From a virus: a stretch of DNA of 24,591 nt. Position 1 is the stretch's first letter. Every line of letters begins with the position of its first letter. The stretch covers positions 1 to 24,591 of IMG/VR virus record IMGVR_UViG_3300021441_000010; one strand, 5' to 3'. The notes beneath the pieces are model-generated. The model saw only the letters and a program-made list of their open reading frames with translations. It did no database searches and was not told the DNA's origin. A program made the position numbers and the translations under genes. Shown here piece by piece: positions 1,675 through 20,033 of the stretch.

Positions 1675-2631
1675 TCAAAACAGGTCGCGCTGTTCCACCG
1701 ACTCAACCGTCTCCCCATTATCCGTTGCATCATCGTTGCTGCTGCCATAGATCGGCCCATTGACCAACAGCACCTCCGGCGCCACCTGCCCCTTGCTTCC
1801 TCTTTGGCCCTGGACCGCCAGCCCTTTCGCGCGCGAGCAGTCGAGCTTCTTCCACCCAGCCGCCGCCGGGTACAACTCGGCCAACTCCGGAGAGTCGTAG
1901 TAGCTCACCACGACGCGAGCTAACCGAAATTGCGACAGCAGCCGCGCCAGTCGCTTGTGGTCCGCTGGGGCCAAATCGTGCGTGTAGACCGCACTGCCGC
2001 GACTGGAGGGCAGGTAGGGCGGGTCCACGTAAATCGCCACCCCGTCCTGGTCCTCGATCTTCTCCAGCAGTAAGAACCCGTCCCGGCGCAGGATGGTGAC
2101 TTTCCTGAGCCGGCGCCGCCAGGCCGGGATAGAATCGACCGCCGACGCGAACCTGGTGCCCTGGATACCGCCGTTCAGGGTGTAGCGCACGCAGAAATTA
2201 TTATTCCACTGTCTCGTCCCGATGACGCCGTTGCGGCCCACCCACGAGGCGACGAAGAAGTGGTAAGCGCGGTCCAGGTCCGGTGAGGCATCGTTCATGA
2301 TGTCTGGGGCTGCCTTGAGGAAGTTGGCCGATTGCCAAAAGATGCCCTCATGGACAAGTGTCCGGCGCAAGCGCCGATAAAGGGCGGGGGCGAGCCGATC
2401 ATCGCGGACCACGAGGGCCAGATTAATCAAATCCCCGTGAAGGTCGTTCACGGTTTCCTGCGAGCAAGCCGGCTTCTCCAACAAAACCGCCATAGAACCA
2501 CAAAATGGCTCCCAATAACAGCGGTGCTTGCCGAGTTGCTGTACGATGGTCGGCGCCATGGTCCGTTTCCCACCGAACCAGGGAGCGATGGCGGTAATCT
2601 TCATGGCGGGCTGCGCTGCCGAAGAAGACAT
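1675..2631 (-). CDS. Dam-type (D12 class) N6-adenine DNA methyltransferase
   Basis: Predicted to transfer a methyl group from S-adenosylmethionine to N6 of adenine in a short DNA target. Residues 17-47 hold the D12-class N-terminal signature (PWFGGKR, then YWEPFCGSMAVL, the SAM-binding motif I). The catalytic motif IV DPPY is intact at about residues 203-206. Total length is 318 residues, slightly longer than typical Dam-like enzymes. The ATG at 2631 follows TAGGAG at good spacing, and this ribosome site overlaps the stop of the gene before it. A further upstream start would only add an Arg/His-rich tail read from a 12-bp repeat. No cognate restriction enzyme is seen nearby, so it is an orphan phage methyltransferase, likely protective. 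Confidence 0.9.
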   Translation of the reverse strand: MSSSAAQPAMKITAIAPWFGGKRTMAPTIVQQLGKHRCYWEPFCGSMAVLLEKPACSQETVNDLHGDLINLALVVRDDRLAPALYRRLRRTLVHEGIFWQSANFLKAAPDIMNDASPDLDRAYHFFVASWVGRNGVIGTRQWNNNFCVRYTLNGGIQGTRFASAVDSIPAWRRRLRKVTILRRDGFLLLEKIEDQDGVAIYVDPPYLPSSRGSAVYTHDLAPADHKRLARLLSQFRLARVVVSYYDSPELAELYPAAAGWKKLDCSRAKGLAVQGQRGSKGQVAPEVLLVNGPIYGSSNDDATDNGETVESVEQRDLF

Positions 2632-2641
2632 CTTAAGACTC

Positions 2642-2998
2642 CTACGTCTGTGCCTGTATCTGTGCCTGTGCCTTGGTCTGTGCCTGTGACTCACTCGACG
2701 CTGGCAAGCCCCGGCAGCGGACGCGCCGGGCTACCTCTCTGGCCCACTGCCAGAAATCCGCCCGGGCCTCCTCTGGCGTCTGCCGATTCTGGCCGCCGCT
2801 GGCCGTGCAGCAGAACCAACTGTACTGCCCGTCGCTCCAGCGGTGCGTCATGGCTGCGAGGATGACGTCGTAAGCTGCCGCCTTCTCGTCCCGGCTGACC
2901 GGCAGCGTTACCAGAGAAGGAGCTGCCTCGTGGGCCGCACCCTGGGTGGCCTCCGGTAATGCTGACTTTGCCGCAGTGTTCTCAGGCTCTCCTTGCAT
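2642..2998 (-). CDS. Hypothetical protein with Gln/Ala repeat tail
   Basis: A 118-residue protein I do not recognise. The centre (about residues 40-95) is the only part that looks folded, with aromatic and Cys-rich stretches such as HRWSDGQYSWFCCTASGG and ADFWQWAREVARRVRCRG. The N-terminus is Ala/Glu-rich and the C-terminus is a low-complexity Gln-Ala-Gln-Thr tail encoded by a 12-bp tandem repeat. The ATG at 2998 has a GGGAGGAG site 11 bases upstream and lies inside the end of the DpdA-like gene (91-base overlap). It is translationally linked to the following adenine methyltransferase, whose ribosome site overlaps its stop codon. Confidence 0.55.
   Translation of the reverse strand: MQGEPENTAAKSALPEATQGAAHEAAPSLVTLPVSRDEKAAAYDVILAAMTHRWSDGQYSWFCCTASGGQNRQTPEEARADFWQWAREVARRVRCRGLPASSESQAQTKAQAQIQAQT
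2646..2687. repeat. 12-bp tandem repeat (three copies of GTCTGTGCCTGT)
   Basis: Copies lie at 2646-2657, 2658-2669 (one mismatch) and 2676-2687, with a 6-base interruption before the third. Read on the minus strand they encode the Gln-Ala-rich tail of the preceding gene and lie just upstream of the methyltransferase ribosome-binding site. Confidence 0.8.
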
Positions 2999-3822
2999 AT
3001 TTCCGTGTTCTCCTCCCAGGTGGCCGCGTAGGCGCCGGCCCGCACCCGATCCTTCCAGCACGATTGCAGTACCGGCCCGCTCGAGTCTGTGCTGAGCGTC
3101 AACCCATGCTGGTCACACAACCAAAGCAACCCACCAAGCACCGGCCGGAACATGACGCCAAAGATATGAACCCGACTCACGCCGGCGTCGGCAATGAGCG
3201 GCAGCACCGACCAGGCCGTGGCCCAGAACGTGGGAATCCACCGCCGGAACCAGCCGAGAATGCACCAGCCGCCCAGCCCAATCCAGTCCGCCGGAATCGC
3301 GCACTGCAACACGCCCTCAACACACTCCCGGTACTGCTGCGCGTCCACGCCCTGGCAAGCCAGCACGAGCTTGCGCGGCTCGAGCCGGTATCGCTGCGAG
3401 GACAGGTAGGCCGCCGCGTCCACGGTGATTGCCACGGCCCGCTCGGCGTCCTCAACTGTCCACCGCTCCTTGCGGCGGCGGCCGTTGTGCCACTTCTCGT
3501 CAATCAAACAGTCATAGCTGACGAGGGCCTCGGCCTGCCACGGGTAGCCCCAGAAGCGGTGGGCTTCGCGCTCCCAACGCAACTGCCGCTCAAGGGCTGC
3601 GGCACAATCCAACCGCGCCTCCGGCGCGTCGGAGAATGCGCCGGAGAATGCGCCGGAATCCAGGATGCCAACCACCTGTGCTGCTTCCGTTGCGGTGAAC
3701 CGCGACTTGGGACCATAAGCCCCACTGAAGCAACGTCGGCCCGTCAGGTTGAGCCGTCGGCTCTGGACGTTCTGCGCATCCGCGCCGACGTACAGCAACA
3801 CTCCCTCGTCCTTGTCCGGCAT
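2908..3822 (-). CDS. TGT/DpdA-like transglycosylase (putative 7-deazaguanine DNA modification)
   Basis: The 304-residue protein has the landmark order of the tRNA-guanine transglycosylase (TGT) superfamily. These are ILDSGAF at residues 53-59 (position of the DSGGFQ substrate Asp), SYDCLIDE at 102-109, CQGVD at 156-160 (QGG-like loop), IGLGG at 181-185, VHIFGV at 218-223 and TDSSGP at 245-250, where the nucleophilic Asp is expected. I do not see the CxCxxC zinc site of true queuine tRNA enzymes. With the phage setting, this favours a DpdA-like enzyme that swaps guanine in DNA for preQ0/ADG-type bases over a tRNA enzyme. The start follows AAAGGAGCGGTC. No queuosine-pathway genes are in the window. 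Confidence is high for fold, moderate for DNA as substrate. Confidence 0.72.
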   Translation of the reverse strand: MPDKDEGVLLYVGADAQNVQSRRLNLTGRRCFSGAYGPKSRFTATEAAQVVGILDSGAFSGAFSDAPEARLDCAAALERQLRWEREAHRFWGYPWQAEALVSYDCLIDEKWHNGRRRKERWTVEDAERAVAITVDAAAYLSSQRYRLEPRKLVLACQGVDAQQYRECVEGVLQCAIPADWIGLGGWCILGWFRRWIPTFWATAWSVLPLIADAGVSRVHIFGVMFRPVLGGLLWLCDQHGLTLSTDSSGPVLQSCWKDRVRAGAYAATWEENTEICKESLRTLRQSQHYRRPPRVRPTRQLLLW

Positions 3823-9033: not shown

Positions 9034-9741
9034 CTACTCACTGAACAGTTGCCGCTGCGCGTCCCGTATCCGCACCGAGCGCGGGCACACCGCCGCCAGT
9101 CGCCGAATTTCCCGGTCCTGGCATTTGAGCAACGGTGCTGTGGCACCGGTCCACCAGGTTTCCAAACCAGCCGCGTTGCGCCGCCCCAGCAGCCACCCCG
9201 CCGCCCGGTAAATCGTGCCGCGATGCAGGCGCGTGTCACAGTAGGAGAGCACCGCGCGAATCGCGTAAGGCTCGTCGACGAACACCGGCGGATGGAGCCG
9301 GAGGTAGTCGAAACCGACGCGGGCTAGGGCCAGGCGAATGACGGTTGACGCCAGGGTGGACCGAAAGTGGCCCTGGCGGTCGACGAAGCCAGGCAAAAAG
9401 TCCGGCCGGTACAGGTCGCCGCCTGGCTGGACTGACGAGCATAGCCACACGCGCGACAGATTCAGAACTTCCCAGCGGTCGTAGGCGGCGCGGCCGGCGG
9501 CTGCGTCCTGCCGGCTGCCGTAGGTCAAGGTGCCGTGGAAGCAGCGGGTGGATTCGGGGCGGCCGAACCAGAGGCAGCCGATGTAACCGTGCGTGGCCAG
9601 ACGCACGACGTAGCACAGGGGCCGGCTGCGGCGGTCGGGCGGCTTGTGGAGGTAGTGGTGCTCAGAAACAGCGTCGCTGGCCCACCCGAGCGTGGCAGGG
9701 TCCTGAGCAACTTCCAGGAACAATTCACAACTGTTGCTCAT
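9034..9741 (-). CDS. Mom-like GNAT-fold DNA modification protein
   Basis: The 235-residue length matches phage Mu Mom, which converts adenine to a carbamoylmethyl-type derivative and shields phage DNA from restriction. The Mom-type landmarks occur in order: HHYLH at 28-32, a GYIGCLWFG strand at 52-60 (the substrate-side beta pair of GNAT proteins), LNLSRVWL at 93-100, and SYCDTRLHRGTIYRAAGW at 166-183, where the family has S-Y-x-D, then G-T-I-Y and an A-x-x-W ending. DUF4338-type GNAT relatives share parts of this pattern and are the main alternative. The gene starts 3 bases inside the end of the second ERCC4 nuclease gene. Confidence 0.7.
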   Translation of the reverse strand: MSNSCELFLEVAQDPATLGWASDAVSEHHYLHKPPDRRSRPLCYVVRLATHGYIGCLWFGRPESTRCFHGTLTYGSRQDAAAGRAAYDRWEVLNLSRVWLCSSVQPGGDLYRPDFLPGFVDRQGHFRSTLASTVIRLALARVGFDYLRLHPPVFVDEPYAIRAVLSYCDTRLHRGTIYRAAGWLLGRRNAAGLETWWTGATAPLLKCQDREIRRLAAVCPRSVRIRDAQRQLFSE

Positions 9742-10451
9742 CTCGGTCTTCCAACTCGTTGTGCCACGGATCGGGCCGCCCGGTTCTTCCGCAACTCCTC
9801 ATCCCGCCAGAACCTCTCCAACAGCCGGAACGTGGTGCGCTCGGCAAACCACCGGTCCGGGCATGGCCACCAGTGGATCTTCGGGAACCGCTCCTGCCAG
9901 GCGATGATGGAGCGGTAGACGGTGACCGGGTTGAGCTGGGAACGGATCGATGCAGGAACCAGAATGCGGTTCAGGGCTGCATACCAGTTACTCAACTCGA
10001 CTCGTTTGGCTACATTCTGCTGCTGCCGTTGCCCTGCCGGTGGATATGCTTGTTCTTCCAGCCAGTCCAGCAGACGGAACAGTTCTTCTGGCCATGCGCC
10101 GAGAATCGATCTCCAGTCCCCCTCGATGACGACGGCCGCGTAATTGAGCTGGGCCAATCGCTCCAGCTCCCGTTGAAACCGCCCACGGTTCTGCCCCAGC
10201 GTGTTGAACAGGTCAGCCAGCGACTTCCTTTCCACCGCAATGCGGCTCTCGAAACCTTGGAGGGAATAGTCGCCGCTGGGCAGACCCGCCACCACGGTGG
10301 GCACGATAAGCGGATGCCGGCCGGTGCGAGCGTCGGACACCAGCCCGCGAAAAGCGTAAGGGCACTGTTCGCGGGTGTCGATCACCACCACGCCGCCGAA
10401 CGCGATCGGTGCCAGCGCTCTTGACTCGTTAGCTATTGCCTGAGCACTCAT
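9738..10451 (-). CDS. ERCC4-family nuclease, copy 2
   Basis: A 237-residue protein with the XPF/ERCC4 nuclease signature. VVIDTRE at about 22-28 holds the first acidic residue, GDYS lies at 60-63 and VERKSLADL at 73-81 (the ERKxxxD core), followed by a helix and AAVVIEGDW. Members cut branched or flapped DNA. The C-terminal third (NPVTVYRSIIAWQERFP, then PDRWFAERTTFRLLERFWRD) is shared nearly residue for residue with the gene just upstream, so the two are paralogues. The ATG at 10451 lies 14 bases from that gene's stop and has AAGGCGG upstream. Codon use is GC-rich like the rest of the window, unlike copy 1. Confidence 0.85.
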   Translation of the reverse strand: MSAQAIANESRALAPIAFGGVVVIDTREQCPYAFRGLVSDARTGRHPLIVPTVVAGLPSGDYSLQGFESRIAVERKSLADLFNTLGQNRGRFQRELERLAQLNYAAVVIEGDWRSILGAWPEELFRLLDWLEEQAYPPAGQRQQQNVAKRVELSNWYAALNRILVPASIRSQLNPVTVYRSIIAWQERFPKIHWWPCPDRWFAERTTFRLLERFWRDEELRKNRAARSVAQRVGRPR

Positions 10452-10465
10452 TTTGACTACCGCCT

Positions 10466-11176
10466 TCACATTCCTGGCAACAAGCAACCAGTTCGACCCG
10501 TGCAATGCTCTTCTTGGCTCCTATAATGATCTCGCCAAAACCTCTCCAGGAGTCGGAAGGTTGTTCTCTCTGCGAACCAGCGTTCCGGGCAGAACCACCA
10601 ATGAACTCGTGGAAATCGCTCTTGGTAGGCAATAATGCAACGATGAACAGTCACAGGACTCAAATACCTTGGCGGCTTCTCACCCCAGACCTTTTCAGTC
10701 TCTTTGTCCGCATTGAAAAACCCTAAGACCTGGCCAATCCTTCCTTCCAACAGCCGGTTTATCATCATCACCAGCCTTTCGTAATACTCAGGCCACAACC
10801 CAAGGATTTGGCGCCAGTCCGCTTCCACCACGACTGCTGCAAACTTCATCGCGGACAGTCTGGAAAGTTCATTCTCAAATTGCTCCCTGCGGTGTTTCAG
10901 CGTTGAATACAAATCAGTGAGCGACTTTCTTTCAATAGCAACGTCGTTCTCGAAACCTTCTAATGAGTAATCTCCAGTCTTTAATGATCGTGTTACTGTG
11001 TACACACCCTTGAGCCTCGACCCACGGTTGGCCCTCATTGTGAAACCATCAAACGTGAAGGGCAGTTTTTCTTGAACGTCGATAATGATCGTGGCTGAAA
11101 AACGTGTCCCTGTTTCGTTCAAAAAAATCTCTTCGAGTGTTTTCTCACCCGCCATGCCTAAACCCCGTCTCATCAT
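10466..11176 (-). CDS. ERCC4-family nuclease, copy 1 (low GC)
   Basis: A 236-residue paralogue of the next gene with the same catalytic set: IIIDVQEK at ~31-38, GDYS at 68-71 and IERKSLTDL at 81-89. Its C-terminal region matches its partner's very closely. Its DNA is strikingly poorer in GC (two sample 60-base lines each come to about 42%) than the flanking genes, which suggests arrival from a different donor and not a recent local duplication. The start overlaps the end of the RecD2-like gene; an ATG at 11155 is an alternative and neither has a strong ribosome site. It probably works in the recombination module with the helicase. Confidence 0.83.
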   Translation of the reverse strand: MMRRGLGMAGEKTLEEIFLNETGTRFSATIIIDVQEKLPFTFDGFTMRANRGSRLKGVYTVTRSLKTGDYSLEGFENDVAIERKSLTDLYSTLKHRREQFENELSRLSAMKFAAVVVEADWRQILGLWPEYYERLVMMINRLLEGRIGQVLGFFNADKETEKVWGEKPPRYLSPVTVHRCIIAYQERFPRVHWWFCPERWFAERTTFRLLERFWRDHYRSQEEHCTGRTGCLLPGM

Positions 11177-13563: not shown

Positions 13564-15087
13564 TTAGAAGTCGGGGAATAGGGTCGTCATCGGGTCCAGT
13601 TCAGGCGGCGGCTCTGGATTCGCCGCGACCGGCAGAGGTTCCGCGAGGTCTGTGCCGAACAGTTCCATGCCGGCTTTCAGGGCGTCCTGGATGCGCCGGG
13701 CTGCGATGACGCAATACTCGGCTTCGCGCTCGATGCCGATGAAGGGCCAGCCGCCTTGCACGCAGGCCACGGCGGTACTGCCGGAGCCAGCGAAGCAATC
13801 GAGTACCTTTCCGCCCACTGGTACGATCAGCTCTAACATCCAGCGCATCAGCTTCGTACTTTTCACGGTGGGGTGCGTGTTCCCTTCGCCCCGGTCACTC
13901 TTGGGAGCCTTGGAGCAGTAGTAGAAGCGCGACACCTGACCGCTGCTGCGGCCGATGCCCTGCGGGTTCTCCTGGCCGTTGAAGGCACCATAACAGTTCT
14001 TGGTCTTTCGACTCTTGTGACGAGGCGGCGTCCCGCCTCTTGTCTGCGGTCCAGCCTGGTCGTTGAGTTGGCCGATGGGGCACTCCGGGTGACAGTCGTA
14101 GGCGTCCACCGTCTCCGCGTGCACGGACCGTTCCACCAGCCCCTCTTGCCCTTGCTGTCCATTGCTACCAATCCCGCCGGGGCCGCGCCGCGCCGGAAAG
14201 TGACCGTTGCCGTTCACGGTTTGCCGACCCAATAGCTGGCACTCCGGGTGGTGCGTCAGGGCAACGTTCGGCGGGAACCGGCCCTTGTCGGTCACCGACT
14301 TCTGGTTAACGGTGCTTTTCGTTTCCATCCACGGCCGCACCCAGCCAACGTGCTTATTCGCCCCGACTTTGGAGCGCTCGGGCGAGGCTGCCATCGCCGC
14401 CACACCTTGGCGGGTGGCGGCCAGATCGGCGGCGGAAGCGTAGGCGATGCGGGTCGCGTCGATGTTGAGAGCGCCCGTGCCCCAGCGGCGGACGTTGGCT
14501 GCCACGGTGCGCTCACCGAGCGGCTTGCGGGCGAGGATCCAGTGCTCGCAGGCCGGCTTGAGGGAAGTGCCGTAGCCGCGTTCGGTTTCCTGTTCACCTT
14601 CTTGTTGAAGGTCTTCATCCAGGTTGCGACTCTTCGGCATGCCCTGCCCGAACAGGTGGTGAACAATGTCTCGAATCTCAAACCCGGCATCTTCGATGGC
14701 CGTGGCCGTCCAGTGGCTGGTGCGCGGGATGGCCCAGACGAGTGCCCAAGCCCCGGGCTTGAGCACACGGAGGCACTGGCGCATGACCGCCGTCAAAAAG
14801 GTAATGAAGGCTTGCCGGCGCCAGGGCGACAGACCGGCGCCGCCCTGGAACGCATATCCAGGGCGGCGCCGGTCTGTCGCCCGATAAGCGTCTCGGTCGG
14901 ACTGGCCATTGCCGTTGCGTTCCGCGCGTCCTTGCTTGAACTCGTCCCACTCCATCCCCATGAATCCCGTCCCGGAGGGAGGATCGCAGCACAAAGCGTC
15001 GACGCTGTTCTCCGGCAACAAGGGCAGCACATCCAGGCAATCAGCCTGGTAGAGCGTCACTCCCTCGTTTTGCAGGTACGGCGTCAT
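13564..15087 (-). CDS. Site-specific N4-cytosine/N6-adenine DNA methyltransferase
   Basis: A beta-type amino-methyltransferase of 507 residues. Catalytic motif IV comes first (CDPPSGTGFMGMEWD at residues 34-48, DPPS in place of DPPY) and the SAM-binding motif I comes last (VLDCFAGSGSTAVAC near residue 455). This is the usual order of phage enzymes of this class. A long central region (~190-430) is the target recognition domain. Residues ~69-88 are encoded by a perfect 26-bp inverted repeat, a very odd feature. The start is uncertain: ATG at 15087 begins where homologues usually do but has no ribosome site, and ATG at 15162 would add an unlikely 25-residue leader. The likely role is orphan protection of phage DNA. 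Confidence 0.88.
   Translation of the reverse strand: MTPYLQNEGVTLYQADCLDVLPLLPENSVDALCCDPPSGTGFMGMEWDEFKQGRAERNGNGQSDRDAYRATDRRRPGYAFQGGAGLSPWRRQAFITFLTAVMRQCLRVLKPGAWALVWAIPRTSHWTATAIEDAGFEIRDIVHHLFGQGMPKSRNLDEDLQQEGEQETERGYGTSLKPACEHWILARKPLGERTVAANVRRWGTGALNIDATRIAYASAADLAATRQGVAAMAASPERSKVGANKHVGWVRPWMETKSTVNQKSVTDKGRFPPNVALTHHPECQLLGRQTVNGNGHFPARRGPGGIGSNGQQGQEGLVERSVHAETVDAYDCHPECPIGQLNDQAGPQTRGGTPPRHKSRKTKNCYGAFNGQENPQGIGRSSGQVSRFYYCSKAPKSDRGEGNTHPTVKSTKLMRWMLELIVPVGGKVLDCFAGSGSTAVACVQGGWPFIGIEREAEYCVIAARRIQDALKAGMELFGTDLAEPLPVAANPEPPPELDPMTTLFPDF
14824..14882. repeat. Perfect 26-bp inverted repeat (7-base loop) inside the methyltransferase gene
   Basis: The left arm is 14824-14849 and the right arm 14857-14882; I compared the arms base by base and found no mismatch. 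The spacer is ACGCATA. The arms are very GC-rich (each contains CGGCGCCG), so an extremely stable hairpin would form in either strand or in the mRNA. It stays in frame and encodes residues ~69-88 of the methyltransferase. Confidence 0.95.
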
Positions 15088-15192
15088 GGGTGAACAAATT
15101 GGTCCAGTTGCTGTGGTTGAATTGGGGTGCGGCTCCGACCTTACAGTCTCGGCCGCACCCATCCCCCGTGCGAAGGGAGAACACGTTGACTG

Positions 15193-19073: not shown

Positions 19074-20033
19074 TCAAGCCGGTACTTCTTGCAGCGAAGC
19101 ACCGGGATAATTCGCCGCCACAATCGCCTCTGCTACGTCTGGCGGCACGCTGTTACCGATCCGATGCACCTGGCTGCTGAGTGTTCCAGTTAGCACGTAG
19201 CTTTCCGGGAACCCCTGCGCCCTGGCCAATTCGCGCGGCGTCAGCATGCGCATCCCGATATCGACGATGGCGAAGACTTCACCGTGGATGGTGACTGTGA
19301 CGAGGCCGAAGCGGTCGTTGGCCGGCGCCGTGTGCAACGGCTCATGCAGGCTCTGACCGATCGCGGTACCGTTGTACTTGGTCAAGAAGCTGTACACGAG
19401 CGCCGCGTGGTTGCCCGTGGCCGACACGGCGCCGTCACCGCGATTGAGGTAGGCCAGGTTCGCGACGACCAGGGCGTGCTTCTGACCGTTGACGCAGGTG
19501 CCCAACGGCTTCTTCAGTCCGGGGACGCGCGGCTTCTGGCCGGGGCGTTCGCTGTAACCGGTTTGGATCAGCGTCGGACAGACCAGCAAGTGCTCATTCT
19601 TCGACACGATGGTGGTCAGCGGTTCGCTGGCGCCGTTGCAATGCTTGCCGTTGCTGCCCGTCTGACCGATCCGCGCCAGGAATGCCGTCATCAGGGCGTA
19701 GTCTTTCGAGCCAAGAACCGTAGGTAGCGGAGCGGTGACCCGTTCCGAACCTTTGCCCCAGCGGCCTTCGCCGTGGGCGCAGCGAACCAGCATGGGCGCC
19801 ACCAGTCCGGTCGCATCTCGGCTGGCCGTGATGGTTGCCATCGGCTCGTTGAGGGACTGGCCGCGAAACTCCTTGCCGCCGTGGTTGCAGAGCATCTCGA
19901 TGGCATCGCGGTTGTGGTTGATCGCGATGTGCGGACTGCGGCCCGTTGCTCGCGTGATGCCGTGCGACGCACCACCGCCGCCTGCGAAACTGTCAATGAC
20001 GAGAGGTTGACGAGTCGCCGTCTTGGTTGTCAT
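19074..20033 (-). CDS. C5-cytosine DNA methyltransferase with deleted catalytic core
   Basis: A 319-residue protein with motif I (VIDSFAGGGGASHGI at 12-26) and the ending motifs (LTPRELARAQGFPESY with motif IX/X-like QVHRIGNSVPP). The catalytic motif IV Cys loop, ENV motif VI and motif VIII are all missing. The text jumps from the helix after motif I (AINHNRDAIEMLCNH) into the repeat-bearing target region (GGKEFRGQSLNEP). Five imperfect repeats of the x-P-L/M-x-T type follow (near 62, 100, 136, 180 and 230). The reading frame is intact across the join, so the protein is still made but cannot methylate by the known mechanism. First gene of the early operon. Confidence 0.85.
   Translation of the reverse strand: MTTKTATRQPLVIDSFAGGGGASHGITRATGRSPHIAINHNRDAIEMLCNHGGKEFRGQSLNEPMATITASRDATGLVAPMLVRCAHGEGRWGKGSERVTAPLPTVLGSKDYALMTAFLARIGQTGSNGKHCNGASEPLTTIVSKNEHLLVCPTLIQTGYSERPGQKPRVPGLKKPLGTCVNGQKHALVVANLAYLNRGDGAVSATGNHAALVYSFLTKYNGTAIGQSLHEPLHTAPANDRFGLVTVTIHGEVFAIVDIGMRMLTPRELARAQGFPESYVLTGTLSSQVHRIGNSVPPDVAEAIVAANYPGASLQEVPA

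Follow-up and report, generated by a model that had tools for sequence, protein, structure and literature searches.

We report here that a gene of the window (24,591 nucleotides, the whole stretch of DNA analysed and an entire IMG/VR record of a virus known only from metagenomes) encodes, with a probability that we put at about 0.58, a virus-borne DpdA of a divergent branch. Such a protein would be a DNA base exchanger devoid of the tRNA-type zinc site, and its likeliest base would be a 7-deazaguanine of the host. Fold, residues and context make membership in DpdA proper likely. The family to which the gene belongs is a separate, divergent and uncatalogued DpdA-like clade, invisible to current family models. 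The gene and its landmark motifs are located as follows:

2908..3822, minus strand: predicted DpdA-like (TGT-superfamily) base-exchange enzyme, 304 aa (translation, relatives, fold)
3631..3660, minus strand: first catalytic motif, D55-SGAF-SGAF-S, with D55 as counterpart of TGT Asp102 (alignment, motif search)
3490..3519, minus strand: SYDCLIDEKW (residues 102-111), with D104/D108 as base-recognition Asp region; a beta-hairpin specific to the family comes next (invariant columns, DSSP)
3349..3357, minus strand: CQG (156-158), Q157 ending a strand like TGT Gln203 (alignment, model)
3262..3279, minus strand: GLGGWC (182-187), predicted base-binding glycines (alignment, model, hhalign)
3154..3171, minus strand: VHIFGV (218-223), H219 aligning with the conserved DpdA His196 (alignments)
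3082..3093, minus strand: STDS (244-247), D246 being the candidate nucleophile (TGT Asp280) (alignment, model, hhalign)

In the 304-aa ORF, DSGAF occupies residues 55-59, SYD 102-104 and TDSS 245-248. The original prediction had listed TGT-superfamily landmarks in this order, with an unclear zinc site of the tRNA enzymes, and translation bore out both points: in 200,000 shufflings of the protein sequence the ordered motif set never appeared, and the zinc motif CxCxxC is missing from the ORF and from all family members examined. The two catalytic Asp positions, D55 and D246, are invariant in an alignment of 14 members and fall at predicted C-terminal strand ends.

Two AlphaFold models were obtained, model 1 from 6 sequences (pLDDT 84.9, pTM 0.86) and model 2 from 14 sequences (pLDDT 89.9, pTM 0.89). 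In the Foldseek comparison with the PDB, the best match of model 1 was 7ui4, the DNA preQ0 insertase DpdA (6e-7, probability 1.00), followed by TGTs, whereas the best matches of model 2 were TGTs, 7ui4 not being among the 50 matches listed. Since model 1 favours DpdA and model 2 TGTs, the fold settles the superfamily and not the choice between DpdA and TGT. The TIM-barrel matches to TGT/DpdA had a TM score of about 0.5 and E-values of 1e-6 to 1e-7, against about 1e-3 for the next fold classes. The viral fold models matched included annotated phage queuine transferases and protein R9TGF0 of Vibrio phage nt-1, which may be the DpdA2 of that phage. According to DSSP on the models, residues D55, D104, Q157, G184-G185, G222 and D246 lie at the end of, or after, consecutive strands (50-55, 99-101, 151-156, 180-183, 217-221, 242-247), and this predicted placement of conserved residues at strand ends is the TGT layout, to which Gln203 and Asp156 belong. 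As modelled, fold and catalytic residues together place the enzyme in the TGT/DpdA superfamily. In TGT the attack is made by Asp280, with the assistance of Asp102 (PMC6165067).

Searched with the single sequence, Pfam, NCBIfam, PHROGs, PDB, phages and plasmids yielded no relative or model match, PADLOC models did not match the enzyme, and an initial scan of genomes, run with this protein alone, did not reveal any relative. An Amastin match was weak, below the cut-off, and thus rejected. Among the scanned relatives of the adjacent D12 methyltransferase, none was seen to have a DpdA-like neighbour. Relatives were first found in viral contigs through a degenerate pattern for WIGLGGWC, and alignment-guided scans enlarged the set to about 20 distinct relatives (33-72% identity), present in viral contigs plus one Chloroflexota MAG. 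This MAG copy, found by the alignment-based genome scan, is the sole copy found in a bacterial assembly (L020 1197-2093, Candidatus Chloroheliaceae), and its flanking genes do not look viral. Invariant columns of the 14-member alignment include D55, S60, A62, F63, R70, Y103, D104, D108, E109, K118, R120, W121, Q157, G158, Q163, Y164, D179, G184, G185, W186, C187, H219, F221, G222, D246 and W269. Pairwise dN/dS in the family ranged between 0.14 and 0.38, dS being high in several pairs; on these sequence comparisons, the family evolves under purifying selection. Two members are split across two frames (L082 2157-3221 and L083 1480-2749), by frameshift, split gene or assembly error. Also, a 1014-aa ORF (L084 5053-8097) contains a DpdA-like scrap of about 40 aa within another protein, perhaps a recombination scar.

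The curated DpdA models of NCBIfam, PHROGs and PADLOC gave no sequence-level match, nor did PF01702. The NCBIfam result is uninformative because the DpdA of phage 9g itself fails that cut-off (13.9 against 200). When the 14-member family was aligned by hhalign with 10 phage DpdAs, the similarity was weak, although located at the expected motifs (P 2.7e-4, probability 42%, 76 columns). The phage 9g DpdA and nine other phage DpdAs have in common LDSGAF-S, LGG, VH-FG and DSS, with an invariant H196, the hallmark His of DpdA; H219 is invariant in our family and sits in the same VH-x-x-G motif.

Phage DpdA of the 9g/CAjan type (PHROG 887) resembles the family in its LDSGAFS, LGG, VH-FG with His, and C/TDSS motifs, and also in being viral, about 300 aa long and free of the zinc motif. 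However, PHROG 887 does not recognise the family, which reads Gln-Gly where phage 9g DpdA reads Phe-His (PCFHAGE) and has an LIDExW hairpin and a GGWC motif that are absent from 9g-type DpdA; moreover, the present virus has no preQ0 operon. Bacterial DpdA (PDB 7ui4, NCBIfam NF041059), the best PDB fold for model 1, has corresponding GAF, GG, VHLLG and IDST motifs, but there is no sequence-model match, the protein of the window is smaller (304 vs 436 aa), and no dpd defence cluster surrounds our gene. The tRNA-guanine transglycosylases (PF01702) share the barrel fold and the two-Asp mechanism layout, and differ from the family in its lack of a zinc site and its DNA-modification context. DpdA2 of Vibrio phage nt-1 is reported to lack His196 (PMC6884629), whereas the family keeps that His.

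The window matches one end of IMGVR_UViG_3300039452_000187 (97,554 bp) at 100% and runs on into its other end at 99.98%, and the ends of that record overlap by 147 bp. The window thus bridges both ends, which indicates a circular genome of about 97.4 kb; as this assembly is circular and complete, the absence of genes can be judged. The genome encodes both terminase subunits, small (TerS) and large (TerL), as well as an integrase, and therefore belongs to a tailed, probably temperate virus, in line with the phage element that had been proposed; the planctomycete host named in the original prediction is a conjecture. Directly after TerL, outside the window, the same virus encodes a Cas12m-like protein (L002 13040-15076; PDB 23vw, 1.3e-53; PADLOC Cas12u1, 4.5e-77), followed by a CRISPR array (L002 15269-15755) of 7 repeats sharing 37 nt at a spacing of 71-74. 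Judged by sequence, gene and array form a type V CRISPR system borne by a virus. At window 9738-11176, the minus strand encodes two ERCC4-type nucleases in tandem, both of one PHROG.

Several DNA-modification genes occur in the window:

1675..2694, minus strand: D12-class N6-adenine DNA methyltransferase, the next sizeable gene downstream of the enzyme (PF02086, 67.9 bits)
9034..9741, minus strand: Mom-like DNA modification protein, on the enzyme's strand (PF25680, 28.6 bits for a cut-off of 27.1; phrog_1384, 2.4e-10)
13564..15162, minus strand: N4/N6 DNA methyltransferase (PF01555)
19074..20033, minus strand: C5-cytosine methyltransferase remnant (PF00145 only in 256-306; sequence inspection)

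In the C5 remnant, motif I runs straight into the C-terminal part, the catalytic middle being missing in frame. The Mom-like gene is homologous to the Mom domain of a fusion found in one relative (L027 7611-10781), where a single 1056-aa ORF joins a DpdA-like domain, Mom (PF25680, 46.4 bits) and a C5 methyltransferase (PF00145, 102.6 bits). In L031 (7968-10706), the DpdA-like domain runs stop-free and in frame into ParB_N and HTH_ParB, and in L024 the family gene comes immediately after a 1339-aa C5-MTase (Dcm)/Dam/ParB_N/D12 fusion. A C5 methyltransferase was present in 9 of the 16 viral records. The idea that Mom is general to the family was rejected, matches occurring in only 2 of 17 records, and a PAPS-reductase-like gene beside the enzyme in L014 was dropped as a partner, as its family occurred in no more than 4 of 16 records, for the most part at a great distance from the enzyme. 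A DNA-modification setting is seen in relatives too, and because fusions and neighbours are DNA-modification genes, DNA is strongly suggested as the enzyme's substrate.

The lack of preQ0 synthesis genes, first noticed in the window, holds for the whole circular genome of about 97.4 kb, in which QueC, QueD and FolE models found nothing. All three genes were also missing from 15 of the 16 viral records, several of those other than this virus being fragments, and the YhhQ transporter was found in none of seven records tested, again including this virus. The lone exception is G015 (177.6 kb), in which QueD, a radical-SAM QueE-like gene, FolE, a Gat-QueC fusion and a second DpdA-like gene lie together at 61-66 kb, its family member being apart from this operon at 7.6-8.5 kb. 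This region (L056, G015 56,000-70,000) is a complete preQ0/archaeosine-type operon, and one virus genome thus holds two base-exchange enzymes. The Chloroflexota MAG with the lone cellular copy has QueC, QueD, FolE and TGT. Phage DpdA is required for base insertion into CAjan DNA, and phages with a lone DpdA are a reported group, preQ0 genes nearby not being obligatory (PMC6884629). Any deazaguanine in the present virus would be host-derived, because the virus has no synthesis genes. A host-derived deazaguanine is possible as the inserted base, although we infer both base and source.

These same data leave some room, tentatively, for a DNA base exchanger or glycosylase of the same fold whose base would not be a deazaguanine of the queuosine pathway. 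An unknown purine might be swapped in, or the base might be removed so that a Mom or methyltransferase partner completes another modification. Such a reading accommodates the complete virus genome without preQ0 genes, the preQ0 operon of G015 already served by a second DpdA-like gene, and the physical fusion with Mom and C5 methyltransferase. It also accommodates the conserved LIDExW hairpin and GGWC, and the deazaguanine measurements in lone-DpdA phages, which were little or none (none in Orion, a trace in 7-11; PMC6884629). However, the family retains every base-binding residue that characterises guanine/deazaguanine enzymes (two Asp regions, Gln, GG), and we consider this alternative unlikely.

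The state of this particular copy also has to be considered. DSGAFSGAFS, which the original prediction did not mention, is the product of a 12-nt in-frame tandem duplication (GGAGAATGCGCC x2, window 3631-3654). All relatives in which the motif is present read DS(G/C)A(F/Y) once, the duplication being unique to this virus among about 20 relatives, and the duplicated stretch (residues 58-62) is the only core segment with a pLDDT below 50 in the 14-sequence model. As the duplication lies inside a catalytic motif, whether this copy still functions is uncertain. The family could be active and this copy impaired or dead, and a second modification gene of the same virus, the C5 methyltransferase, is likewise broken. 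Against this, D55-SGAF is intact, the frame is kept, and the remainder of the protein is conserved with respect to the L011 homologue (72% identity, dN/dS 0.23); we regard an impaired or dead copy as rather unlikely. That the enzyme is a queuine-type transferase of the virus with tRNA as its substrate is highly improbable: the fold class is shared and Foldseek scores TGTs about as well as DpdA, but the CxCxxC that belongs to the tRNA-binding scaffold (PMC6165067) is missing, the DpdA-type His is kept, and the fusion partners and neighbours are DNA-modifying enzymes.

For the divergent viral DpdA that we favour, we hypothesize, by analogy with TGT, that an attack of D246 on the sugar C1' would free guanine from a guanosine of the viral DNA, leaving a covalent DNA-enzyme intermediate. 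The base to be inserted, most likely a 7-deazaguanine (preQ0 or preQ1) out of the host queuosine pathway, would be bound by residues Q157, G184-G185 and D104/D108, and D55 would activate it so that the bond is re-formed. Acting alongside this virus's own Mom-like protein and its methyltransferases, the enzyme would make the DNA resist host nucleases, and a protective role against these nucleases may be proposed on this basis. In favour of this explanation stand the fold matches, the invariant catalytic residues, the DpdA-type His, the fusions and neighbours that modify DNA, the C5 methyltransferases of the viral records, the preQ0 operon in the virus of one relative and the requirement for DpdA in CAjan (PMC6884629). 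Counted against it are the weak similarity to known DpdA (hhalign 42%) and the missing NCBIfam DpdA match, the absence of preQ0 genes and YhhQ, the other DpdA-like gene in the operon of G015, the lone-DpdA phage data (PMC6884629) and the low-confidence DSGAF duplication. It is also conceivable, as a speculative proposal, that base exchanger, Mom-type enzyme and methyltransferase form a viral module and jointly install an undescribed or stacked modification without viral preQ0 synthesis; this module is fused in L027, whereas its genes are separate in this virus.

In many phages DpdA is a lone gene, unaccompanied by genes for its precursor. The clade described here is defined with a set of candidate catalytic residues, and the fusion of DpdA, Mom and C5 methyltransferase ties it to DNA modification in a single polypeptide open to assay.
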